64,000 bases of DNA from Bacteroidetes bacterium CG12_big_fil_rev_8_21_14_0_65_60_17 (lineage in GTDB: Bacteria; Bacteroidota; Rhodothermia; Rhodothermales; UBA10348): assembly GCA_002787815.1 (NCBI GenBank), contig PCUY01000062.1:1-64000 (forward strand), in the 5' to 3' direction. Positions 46,969 through 51,306 of this stretch are shown piece by piece. A model generated the notes under the pieces. It made no database searches, was not told the origin of the DNA, and saw nothing but the letters and a program-made list of their open reading frames with translations. The position numbers and the translations under genes were made by a program. Every line of letters begins with the position of its first letter. The first letter of the stretch is position 1.

Positions 46969-47120
46969 GAGCCGTAACCGAATCCGCACTGGTCCCGTGG
47001 GGTTCCCGAGTCGGAGAAACCCCTACAATGCTGGATGGACGAGCCGGAGTTGACTTAATGAAGGGTGCGCGTATTTTATCAGCCCGTAAACCGGATCGCC
47101 AACCAGACCGTCAGGTGATT

Positions 47121-49238
47121 ATGAAAGTATATGATGCAGATCACATCAGAAACGTGGCCCTCGTGGGGCACCAGGGCAGTGGAAAAACCATGCTGGCTGA
47201 ATCCATGCTGTATGCTGCAGGTGGCCTGAAGCGCATGGGCAGTATAGAGGAAGGGACCACGATCAGCGATTACCACGCCAGTGAAAAGGAGCGCGGGATG
47301 TCGGTATTCGCATCGCTCCTGCACGTTGAGTATCTGGGCAAGAAAATCAATGTGATGGATACGCCAGGTTATCCGGATTTCGTGAGTGAAGTTGCAGCTT
47401 CGTTGCATGTCACGGATTCGGCCCTTTTTGTCATCAACGCAGGGGAAGGTGTACAGGTAGGTACCGAACTGGCGTGGCGTTCGGCCGTGCGGCAGAATAC
47501 GCCCTCCATGTTCGTCATCAATCACCTGGACAAGTCCGACTCGAATTTCAGGGACGTCATTGCTCAGATAAAAGATCGATTCGGGCGCGGTGCTACCGTT
47601 GTGCAGATTCCTGGTGGATCCGGCAGTCGCTCCATCATTGATGTGCTTGTCATGAAGCAGATCACATTCGATGACCACGGCCGGATGACCCTTTCCGGGA
47701 TCGACGCCGCGTTTGTCGATGAGGCGCAGCAGCTCCACAATGAACTGGTCGAAAACATTGCTGAGAATGATGAGAGTCTGATGGATCTGTATTTCGAAAA
47801 GGGTACGTTGACCGAAGACGAAATGAGGGCCGGTTTACGCGAAGCCATGATTCGGCACCAGTTGTTTCCGATCTTCCTGACGAGCGCGACGAAGAACATT
47901 GGTGTTTCGCGCCTGATGGAATTCGTCGGAAACGTATGCCCGACGCCCAATCAGATGCCGCCTGCACCGTTGGTCAACGGCGGGGCCATTGCGCCAGACT
48001 CGGGGGCGGAGCCTGTTGCACTCATTTACCACACGACGTCGGAAGCCCACGTCGGTGATTATTCGTTCTTCCGGATATACTCGGGAACGCTCGATACAGG
48101 CATGGACCTGGTAAATGCCGAGACCGGTGTGACCGAGCGCCTCGGACAGATTTTTACGATCAACGGACATGATCGTGATCCGGTCGGAAAGATGTACGCG
48201 GGGGATCTTGGAGCACTCGTGAAGCTCAAGAATACGCATACCAACAACACATTGCACCTGAAGGGAAGCAAGGCCGTGGTTGAGCCCTTCGAGGTACCAT
48301 CTCCCCGGTACTCTGTCGCTGTCGTCTCGGTACGCGATGGAGAGGAGGACAAGCTGGCAGCCGGGTTGCACCAGTTGCACGAAGAAGATCCTTCGCTGCA
48401 GATAACCCATGACCAGCTGCTCAGTCAGATCGTTTTGAGTGGTCAGGGAGAAATGCACCTCGAAATCGCAAAATACAGACTCAAAAACAGGTTCGGGGTC
48501 GACGTCGAGTTTATAAAGCCCAAGGTAGCATACCGGGAAACCATCCAGATGCAGGCCCGGGCAAAATATCGTCACAAGAAGCAGACGGGAGGTGCCGGTC
48601 AATTTGCGGATATATCCATGCTGATTGAGCCGCTCAATGGCGAATTCGTGCCGCCGGACGATATCAAGGTTCGAGGCGAACACACCGAAACTACCGCCTG
48701 GGGGTCTACCATTCATTTTGTAGATGCGATCGTGGGTGGCGTGATTGACATGCGCCGCTTTTTCGGAGCCATACAGAAAGGGGTGCTGGAGGTGTGTCAG
48801 CACGGCCCCGTGGCAGGGTATCCCGTCGGCGATGTCCGCGTCGTCATCTATGATGGGGGCATGCATCCTGTCGATTCAAACGAGGCGGCATTCAAGTCGG
48901 CGGCACGGGCATGTTTTCGGGACGCGTTCCGACAGGCAAAGGCCGTCATGCTGGAGCCGGTGCATCATCTGGAAGTCCTGATCCCCGATTCTTATACGGG
49001 TGATATAATGGGAGACCTCAATACACGACGAGCGCGTATCCAGGGCATTGAGTCCGAAGGCCCGTTCCAGAAAGTTGTTGCCGATGCCCCGGAAGCGGAG
49101 CTCCACCGGTACTCCACGTCTCTGCGGTCCATGACCCAGGGTAGGGGGCTGCATCGATCCGAGTTTGCTGGTTACGAACCCATGCCCAGGCATGTACAGG
49201 ATGAGATTGCATCGGCCGCTGTACACGATGAAGAGTAG
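47121..49238 (+). CDS. Elongation factor G paralogue (EF-G2-like)
   Basis: A 705-aa translational GTPase-fold protein distinct from main EF-G. G1 is GHQGSGKT (16-23) and G3 is DTPGYPDF (80-87), but the G4 site reads NHLD (134-137) where NKxD is standard. Domains II-V follow: HTTSEAHVGDYSFFRIYSG, SPRYSVAVVS, LSGQGEMHLEIAKYRLKNRFGV, KQTGGAGQFADISM and the C-terminal VLIPDSYTGDIMGDLNTRR. Paralogues in Bacteroides have been reported to support translation under starvation with reduced or absent GTP use (from memory). ATG 47121 follows CAGGTGATT; the upstream frame is not conserved. Amidase follows 8 nt later. Confidence 0.85.
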   Translation: MKVYDADHIRNVALVGHQGSGKTMLAESMLYAAGGLKRMGSIEEGTTISDYHASEKERGMSVFASLLHVEYLGKKINVMDTPGYPDFVSEVAASLHVTDSALFVINAGEGVQVGTELAWRSAVRQNTPSMFVINHLDKSDSNFRDVIAQIKDRFGRGATVVQIPGGSGSRSIIDVLVMKQITFDDHGRMTLSGIDAAFVDEAQQLHNELVENIAENDESLMDLYFEKGTLTEDEMRAGLREAMIRHQLFPIFLTSATKNIGVSRLMEFVGNVCPTPNQMPPAPLVNGGAIAPDSGAEPVALIYHTTSEAHVGDYSFFRIYSGTLDTGMDLVNAETGVTERLGQIFTINGHDRDPVGKMYAGDLGALVKLKNTHTNNTLHLKGSKAVVEPFEVPSPRYSVAVVSVRDGEEDKLAAGLHQLHEEDPSLQITHDQLLSQIVLSGQGEMHLEIAKYRLKNRFGVDVEFIKPKVAYRETIQMQARAKYRHKKQTGGAGQFADISMLIEPLNGEFVPPDDIKVRGEHTETTAWGSTIHFVDAIVGGVIDMRRFFGAIQKGVLEVCQHGPVAGYPVGDVRVVIYDGGMHPVDSNEAAFKSAARACFRDAFRQAKAVMLEPVHHLEVLIPDSYTGDIMGDLNTRRARIQGIESEGPFQKVVADAPEAELHRYSTSLRSMTQGRGLHRSEFAGYEPMPRHVQDEIASAAVHDEE

Positions 49239-49246
49239 GCCGCCCG

Positions 49247-50263
49247 GTGTCGCGTAAGGAAATTCTCCGTGGCGTCTACGAGGAGAACAGACGCATTGCG
49301 GAAAGCGGAGACCGGAAATCGACAGCGGGGGACAGTCGCAGATTCGGGCCGGGAACGCTGGTGGTCGCAGCTGTTCTCCTGGCGGCGGTCGGCGTCGTGT
49401 TGTGGGACAATACGTCCCGCCACGACGGAACGGAATCCAGTTCGTCGTCAACGTCGCCTGACGCCCGGTTTGAAATGGCCATTCCGGACGACCCGGGGCT
49501 GCGTGCGTTGGAATTACCGGAAGGCATGTCACTCGAGCAGTTGACCAGTTCGGCCGTTCCCATTGCTGATCTGTTTGATCTTGGTGTACGTACCATTATT
49601 ATCGACGCCGGACATGGTGGGGTGGACAGTGGGGCCAGGTCCCGCATTGGACTCCAGGAGAAAGACATCACGCTCGATGTCGCGAAAAGGCTGTCAAGGC
49701 GTCTTGAGCGCTACGGCGTTTATGACGTTCTGATGACGCGGGAGGCGGACTCGTCATTGACTCTTCGTCAACGCGTCGATTTTTCGAACAGCCAGGGAGC
49801 CGACATATTCGTGTCCATCCACGTCAACTGGTTCCCATCGGATTCGGTCTATGCACTCGAGACGTACTATTTCGGTGGACAAGCCGATGCCGTCGCCCTG
49901 AGACTGGCTGAACGCGAGAACCGGAACTCGGATTACACCGTGGCTGAATTCAATCGTCTCATGTCACGGATGTCAGACCGGATGAAAGGAGAGGAGTCAC
50001 GACGTCTTGCCCTGGCTGTACAACGAAGCATGATTCGCAATACCCGCCGCGAGACGGGGCCGGTGGAAAATTGGGGGATCAAATCAGGTCCTTTCGTAGT
50101 GCTTGTTGGAACGGACGCCCCTGGCATCCTAGCTGAAATTGGTGTAATTAGTAATGGGCCTGAAGCGGAGCGTCTTGCGACGGTCGAATACCGGGAACGG
50201 TTGGCCCTCTACCTCGAAGAAGGGATTATCAATTATTTGAATCAAATGGCATCCAACGAGTAA
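49247..50263 (+). CDS. N-acetylmuramoyl-L-alanine amidase (Amidase_3), membrane-anchored
   Basis: A 338-aa zinc amidase with one membrane helix near residues 36-53 after a basic N-terminus. TIIIDAGHGGVDSGARS carries the first Zn His (H123), LQEKDIT the Glu (E138), FVSIHVNWFPSD the second His (H192), and ILAEIGVISNGPEAE the catalytic Glu (E297). AmiC-like enzymes separate daughter cells by splitting septal peptidoglycan. No SPOR or AMIN domain is present. The GTG at 49247 is the only start before the membrane helix. It precedes the MamK-like actin gene by 2 nt, so the two are almost certainly cotranscribed. Confidence 0.92.
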   Translation: MSRKEILRGVYEENRRIAESGDRKSTAGDSRRFGPGTLVVAAVLLAAVGVVLWDNTSRHDGTESSSSSTSPDARFEMAIPDDPGLRALELPEGMSLEQLTSSAVPIADLFDLGVRTIIIDAGHGGVDSGARSRIGLQEKDITLDVAKRLSRRLERYGVYDVLMTREADSSLTLRQRVDFSNSQGADIFVSIHVNWFPSDSVYALETYYFGGQADAVALRLAERENRNSDYTVAEFNRLMSRMSDRMKGEESRRLALAVQRSMIRNTRRETGPVENWGIKSGPFVVLVGTDAPGILAEIGVISNGPEAERLATVEYRERLALYLEEGIINYLNQMASNE

Positions 50264-50265
50264 TT

Positions 50266-51306
50266 ATGGCTGCAGAAAAAAAGACTACTAAAAAGAAGGC
50301 ATTGTCCAATGTCCTGTATATCGGGATGGATCTGGGTACGTCCCGAAGTGCCGTGGTAGCCAGCAATGGCAAGCGGGACTGGGTCCACAGCTATGTGGGA
50401 TGGCCCAAGGATTTTGTTGCCCGTAAGCATTTGGGAAAGGATGTATTGTTCGGAGAGGAGGCGTTGGACAATCGGTTGTCCGTACACCTTTCCAGACCGC
50501 TCGAACAGGGGGTTATCCGGGATGGTACTGTTCGGGACGAGGATGCTGTCCGGGAATTGGTGCATTATCTGATCGAGGCGGCAGCTCCCGGCGATTCGAC
50601 TGAAGTGTATGCGGCCGTGGGTGTGCCCGCTGAAGCGCTTCGCGTCAACAAAATGGCCATCAGGGATGCCGTCAAAGAATATGCGGACAGGTTGATGGTC
50701 GTCTCGGAACCGTTTGCCATCGCGTATGGCATTGGCATTCTGAACAATGCGCTTGTGATTGACATCGGGGCGGGGACCATGGATTTCTGCATAATGCATG
50801 GCACCATGCCAACGGAGGAAGATCAGCGCACACTGACCGTGGCTGGCGACTATATTGACAGGCACCTGCTCGATGTACTGTCGGAAAAGTATCCAAACGC
50901 CCGTTTTTCTGAACCCCTCATTCGCCAGGCAAAAGAGCAGGGAGCCTTTGTAGGGAGTGGTAAAAACAGGGTCAAGGTCAAAGTACCTGTGGACGGGGTG
51001 ACGACTGAGCTCGACATTACACCCGAAATGCAGCGGGTCTGCGCAAGTATCGTACCCGTCATAACGGAAGCCATGATGGACTTGATATCAGAATACGAAC
51101 CTGATTTTCAGGATGAAGTAAAACAGAATATCTATCTGGCAGGCGGGGGAAGTCAGATCCATGGATTGGACAAAGCACTTGTCGATGCGCTCAAGGACCA
51201 TGGGTCGTTGAACGTGAAAGTAATCGATGATCCGCTCTACGCCGGTGCAGAAGGTGCCCTGGCTCTGGCCCAGGACATGCCGGACGAATATTGGGAAGAC
51301 ATGTGA
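50266..51306 (+). CDS. MamK-like bacterial actin
   Basis: A 346-aa actin-fold ATPase. YIGMDLGTSRSAVVAS is phosphate-1, ALVIDIGAGTMDFCIMHGT phosphate-2, and NIYLAGGGSQIHGLDKAL the adenosine motif. Several blocks follow MamK as I recall it: VVGYPKD-like YVGWPKDFVARK, VSEPFAIAYGIG, LTVAGDYIDRHLLD and the C-terminal DEYW end (MamK ends with QYW). It is distinct from MreB by the absence of the MreB GxDxG-type regions. MamK forms filaments that position magnetosomes; here no other magnetosome gene is present. It could organise the amidase or another membrane complex. ATG 50266 starts a lysine-rich leader (KKTTKKK). Confidence 0.82.
   Translation: MAAEKKTTKKKALSNVLYIGMDLGTSRSAVVASNGKRDWVHSYVGWPKDFVARKHLGKDVLFGEEALDNRLSVHLSRPLEQGVIRDGTVRDEDAVRELVHYLIEAAAPGDSTEVYAAVGVPAEALRVNKMAIRDAVKEYADRLMVVSEPFAIAYGIGILNNALVIDIGAGTMDFCIMHGTMPTEEDQRTLTVAGDYIDRHLLDVLSEKYPNARFSEPLIRQAKEQGAFVGSGKNRVKVKVPVDGVTTELDITPEMQRVCASIVPVITEAMMDLISEYEPDFQDEVKQNIYLAGGGSQIHGLDKALVDALKDHGSLNVKVIDDPLYAGAEGALALAQDMPDEYWEDM

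Follow-up and report, generated by a model that had tools for sequence, protein, structure and literature searches.

In Escherichia coli, the division amidases AmiA, AmiB, and AmiC have a signal that is cleaved on export, and they work together with the LytM-type proteins EnvC and NlpD. In Bacillus subtilis, the pairs MreBH/LytE and Mbl/CwlO join actins of the MreB family to enzymes that are secreted; neither a direct tail in the cytosol nor a fixed pairing of the genes is known for them. There, the MreB-type actins guide two autolysins, LytE and CwlO (PMC3817527), and this is the nearest functional precedent for control of a wall hydrolase by a bacterial actin.

Another group of bacterial actins centers on MamK of the magnetosome. 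In Magnetospirillum, MamK is bound by the membrane proteins McaA and McaB, for which no linear motif is named (PMC13170167), and a hypothetical ancestral MamJ-like adaptor has been proposed (PMC10653835). Two actins of this group have been described outside magnetosomes. BeeR is a three-stranded, MamK-related actin of non-magnetotactic Verrucomicrobiota whose function is stated as unknown (PMC11929497), and Bbp ("big bacteria protein") is a MamK-like actin of large bacteria, including Desulfobacterota and Gammaproteobacteria (PMC10580974). We found no published account of a MamK-type actin together with an N-acetylmuramoyl-L-alanine amidase, in a search that covered few subscription papers.

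An amidase and an actin as one unit

The window is a stretch of 64,000 nucleotides (contig PCUY01000062.1) from a member of the Rhodothermales. It includes an Amidase_3 gene that is followed on the same strand by an actin gene (Table 1). From the stop codon of the amidase to the start codon of the actin there are 2 nt, and both ORFs have the expected domain matches, so we agree with the initial annotation that the two are encoded as one unit. The EF-G-like GTPase just upstream is probably cotranscribed with the amidase, but it is context only: we did not find it at the amidase-actin loci of other families and phyla.

Table 1. Features of the amidase-actin locus (window coordinates; residues are numbered within the amidase).
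Feature	Coordinates	Strand	Description
EF-G-like GTPase	47028-49238	+	Pfam EF-G domains; ends 8 nt before the amidase
Amidase ORF	49247-50263	+	GTG start, 338 aa; Amidase_3 (PF01520), E = 2.8e-43
Cytosolic tail motif SRKEILRGVYEENRRI, residues 2-17	49250-49297	+	Putative actin-docking helix
Predicted transmembrane helix, residues 35-56	49349-49414	+	AF2 helix 35-56; N-terminus inside
Catalytic domain, residues 113-337	49583-50257	+	Predicted periplasmic; AmiA/AmiC-like helical insert (~213-270)
Actin ORF	50266-51306	+	346 aa; MamK family, amidase-linked clade

Identity of the actin

Family models place the actin with MamK. It scores 402.4 bits on the NCBIfam model for MamK (NF040964), which is 2 bits over the cutoff of 400; its relatives score 371 to 435, and we regard it as borderline. 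Its scores on the models for BeeR (NF053558, 219 bits with a cutoff of 530), MreB (88 bits with a cutoff of 293), and FtsA (22 bits with a cutoff of 176) are all below threshold. The family search gave no match to ParM, and an Alp7A-like C-terminal domain reached 19 of 22 bits. Among solved structures, the best match is MamK (5ljw, E = 8e-77; 38% identity), followed by BeeR (8r2n) and MreB. An AF2 model that was built from 19 relatives (pLDDT 81.5) suggests a MamK fold, as its top Foldseek matches are MamK (5ljw/5ljv, TM up to 0.85) and then BeeR. The N-terminus of the actin is lysine-rich, and we saw no membrane-binding helix in it. The same genome encodes a separate MreB (463 bits), and further, smaller actin-fold matches in it have frame lengths that fit DnaK and FtsA.

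In phylogenetic trees, the amidase-linked actins form a clade of their own, both in a careful tree (21/21 monophyletic, support 97/99) and in a larger tree (49/49, SH-aLRT 99). MreB lies outside of this clade in both trees, with support of 100. BeeR also falls outside of the clade in the tree, and its model score likewise sets it apart from the window's actin. FtsA is excluded by the family model, not by a tree. Thus, the initial annotation of a MamK-type actin, rather than MreB, FtsA, or ParM, stands by models and by fold, but the protein is not the MamK of magnetosomes itself, as it belongs to a separate clade. For Bbp, the paper that describes it makes no mention of an amidase (PMC10580974).

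In the trees, the amidase-linked clade has two others next to it. One comprises MamK from the magnetosome clusters of Desulfobacterota and Nitrospirota; the other is small, and coiled-coil proteins are encoded beside its actins. (The magnetosome identity of the former comes from MamB-type CDFs of about 235 bits at loci L197 and L198 and from a MamE-like protease at L197.) The branch that separates these three clades from MamK of M. magneticum has moderate support only (86; 90/86), so we draw no conclusion as to which use came first.

Could the lineage be magnetotactic and the window's actin a magnetosome MamK that has been displaced? The actin does pass the NCBIfam cutoff for MamK, if only by those 2 bits. 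However, its clade is a separate one (97/99), no protein in the genome matches the MamE model above the cutoff, and the genome's single CDF, which lies on another contig, looks generic (111 bits on the MamB model, versus 235 in a magnetosome cluster). As the initial annotation had noted, there are no magnetosome genes near the actin, and the CDF and MamE results extend this to the genome, which has no magnetosome set. We therefore rejected a magnetosome origin, and we consider a displaced MamK to be extremely improbable. Unlike magnetosome MamK, the window's actin has a clade of its own, no magnetosome genes, and an amidase as its constant partner.

The pair across phyla

The adjacency that was first noticed in the window is conserved among relatives. 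For 100 of the 100 distinct actins of the amidase-linked clade that we examined, the same Amidase_3 gene lies directly upstream on the same strand. The pair occurs in five phyla (Rhodothermota, Desulfobacterota, Nitrospirota, Proteobacteria, and Aminicenantes). Where we measured the spacing (86 distinct pairs), the two genes overlap in 60 and lie within 30 nt in 18. The result does not depend on searching for the amidase: in 80 relatives, we located the actin by its profile alone and disregarded the amidase, and at each locus that was read with a full MamK-family match, the amidase comes immediately before the actin in the same orientation. When we scanned one genome per species, we obtained 80 more loci from Rhodothermota, Desulfobacterota, Nitrospirota, Gamma- and Betaproteobacteria, and Aminicenantes, with the amidase at all of them; these actins are 52–98% identical to the window's. 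Profile surveys of Desulfobacterota (297 genomes) and Nitrospirota (246 genomes) added another 19 loci of the same clade, again all with the amidase. The MamK-family actins of other clades in these two surveys (34–48% identity) have no amidase beside them.

Within our sample of the window's phylum (394 genomes), the actin is restricted to the window's order, and inside several families of that order its presence and absence alternate. We searched the order's 114 genomes, using the amidase alignment, for the form of the amidase with the conserved N-terminal tail. The actin is present in 34 of these genomes and the tailed amidase is present in exactly those 34 (34/34 versus 0/80; Fisher's exact test, P ~ 8e-30, which is overstated because kinship is ignored). 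The tailed amidases are easily told from others, at 339–437 bits as compared to at most 219 bits for the next amidases. Their matches begin at the tail, unless the contig stops short of it (G006, G009, and G030). Apart from one fragment in G030, the amidases at or below 219 bits match from the linker or the catalytic region onward and lack the tail. Most of the 34 genomes also encode a second, ordinary amidase (~140–170 bits). Given the 100 of 100 distinct clade members and the perfect co-occurrence, the adjacency is not due to chance. The suggestion that the coupling, rather than the single gene, is the new part is borne out by this conserved pairing.

Other neighbors vary by lineage, with EF-G and HolB in the window's family and different sets elsewhere. 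A comparison of neighbors across lineages found no third gene that is conserved at the locus in all phyla. In many Nitrospirota, and in that one phylum only, a Response_reg+SPOR gene lies directly downstream of the actin (L184:373-1506:-, L179:222-1481:-, and 12 loci such as L068, L092, and L105). In L184, a frame of 721 codons (G970) seemed to be a natural amidase-actin fusion, which we rejected: there, the actin reads through into the downstream Response_reg+SPOR gene. Also, L035 and L036 are a single locus that appears twice, inverted, on a metagenome contig (JAJCYR010000091.1), which is probably an assembly artifact.

Anatomy of the amidase

E. coli AmiA (8c2o) is closest to the window's amidase both by sequence (phmmer) and by fold (Foldseek with the AF2 model). 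The phmmer alignment to AmiA passes through the helical insert, while the alignment to AmiC2 (5emi), which is insert-free, breaks there; the AF2 model shows the insert helices at 215–270. The active-site residues H123, E138, H192, and E297 are invariant in 30 diverse relatives, so the zinc-binding and catalytic set is complete. Amidase_3 is the only domain above the cutoff, and we did not find an AMIN domain. (AmiA also lacks one.) In common with AmiA, AmiB, and AmiC, then, the window's amidase has the zinc site, the Amidase_3 fold (as predicted for its domain), and the helical regulatory insert, whose regulatory role is putative here. Unlike them, it is predicted to stay anchored, with a conserved tail in the cytosol, and it has no AMIN match.

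In 99% of the 83 distinct relatives compared, the hydrophobic segment near the N-terminus reaches a hydropathy of 1.6 or more. The net charge around it in these relatives is +5 before and −1 after. From this pattern, the N-terminus is predicted to be inside and the enzyme outside. The AF2 layout is a helix (residues 2–20), a disordered stretch, the membrane helix (35–56), a disordered linker, and the domain. Hence, we predict that the amidase crosses the membrane once, with a short tail in the cytosol and an intact AmiA-type active site outside.

The N-terminal helix of the tail carries a motif with the consensus R/KxxILRGVYEENLRI. Among 30 diverse amidases, N14 is invariant (30/30) and L7, V10, and Y11 are each at least 90% conserved, at a mean column identity of 35%. 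Ahead of the catalytic domain, conservation in these 30 amidases is limited to the tail helix: no column is conserved in the linker, in the membrane segment, or elsewhere in the tail. In the cultured species Roseithermus sacchariphilus (L015/L043), the amidase has the tail motif doubled in tandem. A search of 18 genomes for other carriers, with a degenerate DNA pattern, gave only scattered matches outside the amidases. None of these had a membrane segment nearby or the motif in its full context, and we rejected them as further clients of the filament.

One genome of the same order has lost both the actin and the motif. In G059, which belongs to a different family (f15) from the window's, the amidase is at the same position as in its f15 relatives, and it is followed directly by a dihydrofolate-reductase-like gene and the same further neighbors; the f15 relatives have the actin in between. 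The G059 amidase keeps its membrane helix and its enzyme domain, but the tail motif is gone. This joint loss is one case, and it points in the expected direction. (The helical insert of the G059 amidase, L201:2975-3910, is also shortened between ETFYF and SRRLA, which may mean that this enzyme is regulated differently as well.)

A proposed role in placing wall hydrolysis

The best reading of these data is probably that a cytosolic filament tethers and positions the wall amidase via its tail. The MamK-family actin would form the filament (we infer polymerization from the family), and the tail helix with the motif would dock on it. The membrane helix and the flexible linker would carry the link across the inner membrane, so that the AmiA-type domain would cut peptidoglycan in the periplasm where the filament is. 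The filament could concentrate and place the amidase at a chosen site, or hold it back there, and the tailed amidase would work beside the ordinary AmiC-type amidase that is also present in most of these genomes. The site would most likely be the division septum, for daughter-cell separation. We infer the binding of tail to actin, the formation of filaments, the direction of control, and the site, and of these the septum is the weakest step. Two things make it the likeliest site: the likeness of the enzyme to AmiA and the Response_reg+SPOR gene that comes next in many Nitrospirota (SPOR is a septal-wall-binding domain). The idea in the initial annotation of septal or polar positioning of wall hydrolysis thus appears plausible, and the conserved tail motif suggests a mechanism for the coupling.

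A second possibility is that control runs in the reverse direction. The tail would be mainly a membrane anchor and a nucleation or cell-cycle cue, the amidase would bring the filament to the septum, and the cargo of the filament would be something else. As we saw no membrane-binding helix in the N-terminus of the actin, the filament would need a membrane adaptor, and none of the genomes scanned has the motif in context anywhere but in the amidase; both observations fit this alternative. However, the invariant catalytic residues imply that wall cutting is under selection, and no other gene is linked to the pair across phyla. We consider this alternative unlikely.

A similar motif beside magnetosome mamK

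Placement of the amidase through its tail would also fit with what lies beside mamK in the neighboring magnetosome clade. These loci have no amidase, but a small protein is encoded directly before mamK, and its last 20–25 residues resemble the amidase tail (for example, YKKALLRGVLQENIMLREET in L164 and RRRGVLRAIMESNKLLWEQAG in L148). Deep-branching magnetosome MamK thus resembles the window's actin in having a neighbor with a docking-like motif. The small protein is directly before the actin in L164–L174, L176, and L148/L149 and beside mamK in two other clusters (L197:9291-9908:- and L198:5211-5687:+). These proteins, from Nitrospirota and Desulfobacterota, have no Pfam or NCBIfam match.

We scored the C-termini beside mamK with a profile that was built solely from amidase tails. 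In L148, L149, L164–L167, L171, and L172, the C-terminus is the best match of all ORFs at the locus. The scores in L164–L166 exceed those of all 589 background proteins, and for L148, L149, L167, L171, and L172, 0.7 to 1.9% of background proteins score as high or higher. Over 14 loci, which are related to each other and are not 14 independent tests, the mean C-terminal score is 6.3, versus −6.1 (sd 1.1) for shuffled C-termini. (This joint PSSM test did not pick up L172, and it scored L176 on the wrong frame; the real upstream ORF of L176 ends in ...LLRQLVEINKELRGE.) Overall, about half of the magnetosome loci give a strong motif score for the partner protein and others a weak one, and the protein beside mamK in L175 has no recognizable motif.

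The likeness suggests, as a lead from sequence comparison, a docking motif common to MamK-family actins, and it makes the small protein a candidate MamK adaptor. More tentatively, R/KxxhLRxhYEENhxh could be an ancient docking motif of MamK-family actins that is used on unrelated cargo: many non-magnetotactic bacteria would have it on the N-terminal tail of the amidase, and deep-branching magnetotactic bacteria at the C-terminal end of a magnetosome protein. We view this as possible, with the odds somewhat against it.

These results also bear on a third explanation for the gene pair, which is that the two proteins are merely coexpressed. The actin would organize some cytoplasmic item, the amidase would act alone, and the tail motif would serve another partner (e.g., a division protein). 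Overlapping genes may indeed mean just matched expression, and docking remains putative. But the perfect co-occurrence of the actin with the tailed amidase, the loss of the motif along with the actin in G059, and the similar motif beside magnetosome mamK, where there is no amidase, speak against it. We think that this explanation is quite improbable.

Several other loci have MamK-family or related actins. Tandem MamK-family actins surround a small protein in three genomes (L147/L160 in G618, L150/L162 in G668, and L151/L161 in G713); this protein is apparently membrane-anchored and ends in ...HYLPAGVVRNMM or similar. These pairs are labeled "mtbD" in our trees, and we do not claim them as magnetosome genes because G618 shows generic CDFs only, with no clear magnetosome CDF found. 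A further MamK-family clade from Desulfobacterota (L152–L154 and L157; L199 and L200) has a coiled-coil-like protein directly upstream, with neither an amidase nor the tail motif at the locus. Finally, the Nitrospirota magnetosome cluster in L197 encodes a second actin-like protein (L197:10121-11362, + strand; Pfam Volactin PF25216, E = 6e-81), which we presume may be the Mad28 of the literature. The name of the Volactin family comes from an archaeal actin.

Implications

Our analysis points to an internal skeleton, so far undescribed, by which a wall hydrolase would be held and placed. The MamK-type actins outside of magnetosomes (BeeR and Bbp) have no known function, and a strict enzyme partner in five phyla gives one clade of these actins a concrete function that can be tested. 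The function that we propose is the cytoskeletal placement of wall hydrolysis through a direct transmembrane link, and the tail motif makes this proposal testable with a short peptide. Deep-branching magnetotactic bacteria may have an adaptor that is still missing from the picture, and the likeness of the C-terminus beside magnetosome mamK to the tail could reveal it. If the docking motif is indeed ancient and shared, then the recognition of cargo by these filaments would be older than either use of the motif, and in the amidase-actin pair we would have a cytoskeleton of the cell wall that is widespread and loads its cargo by a single rule.
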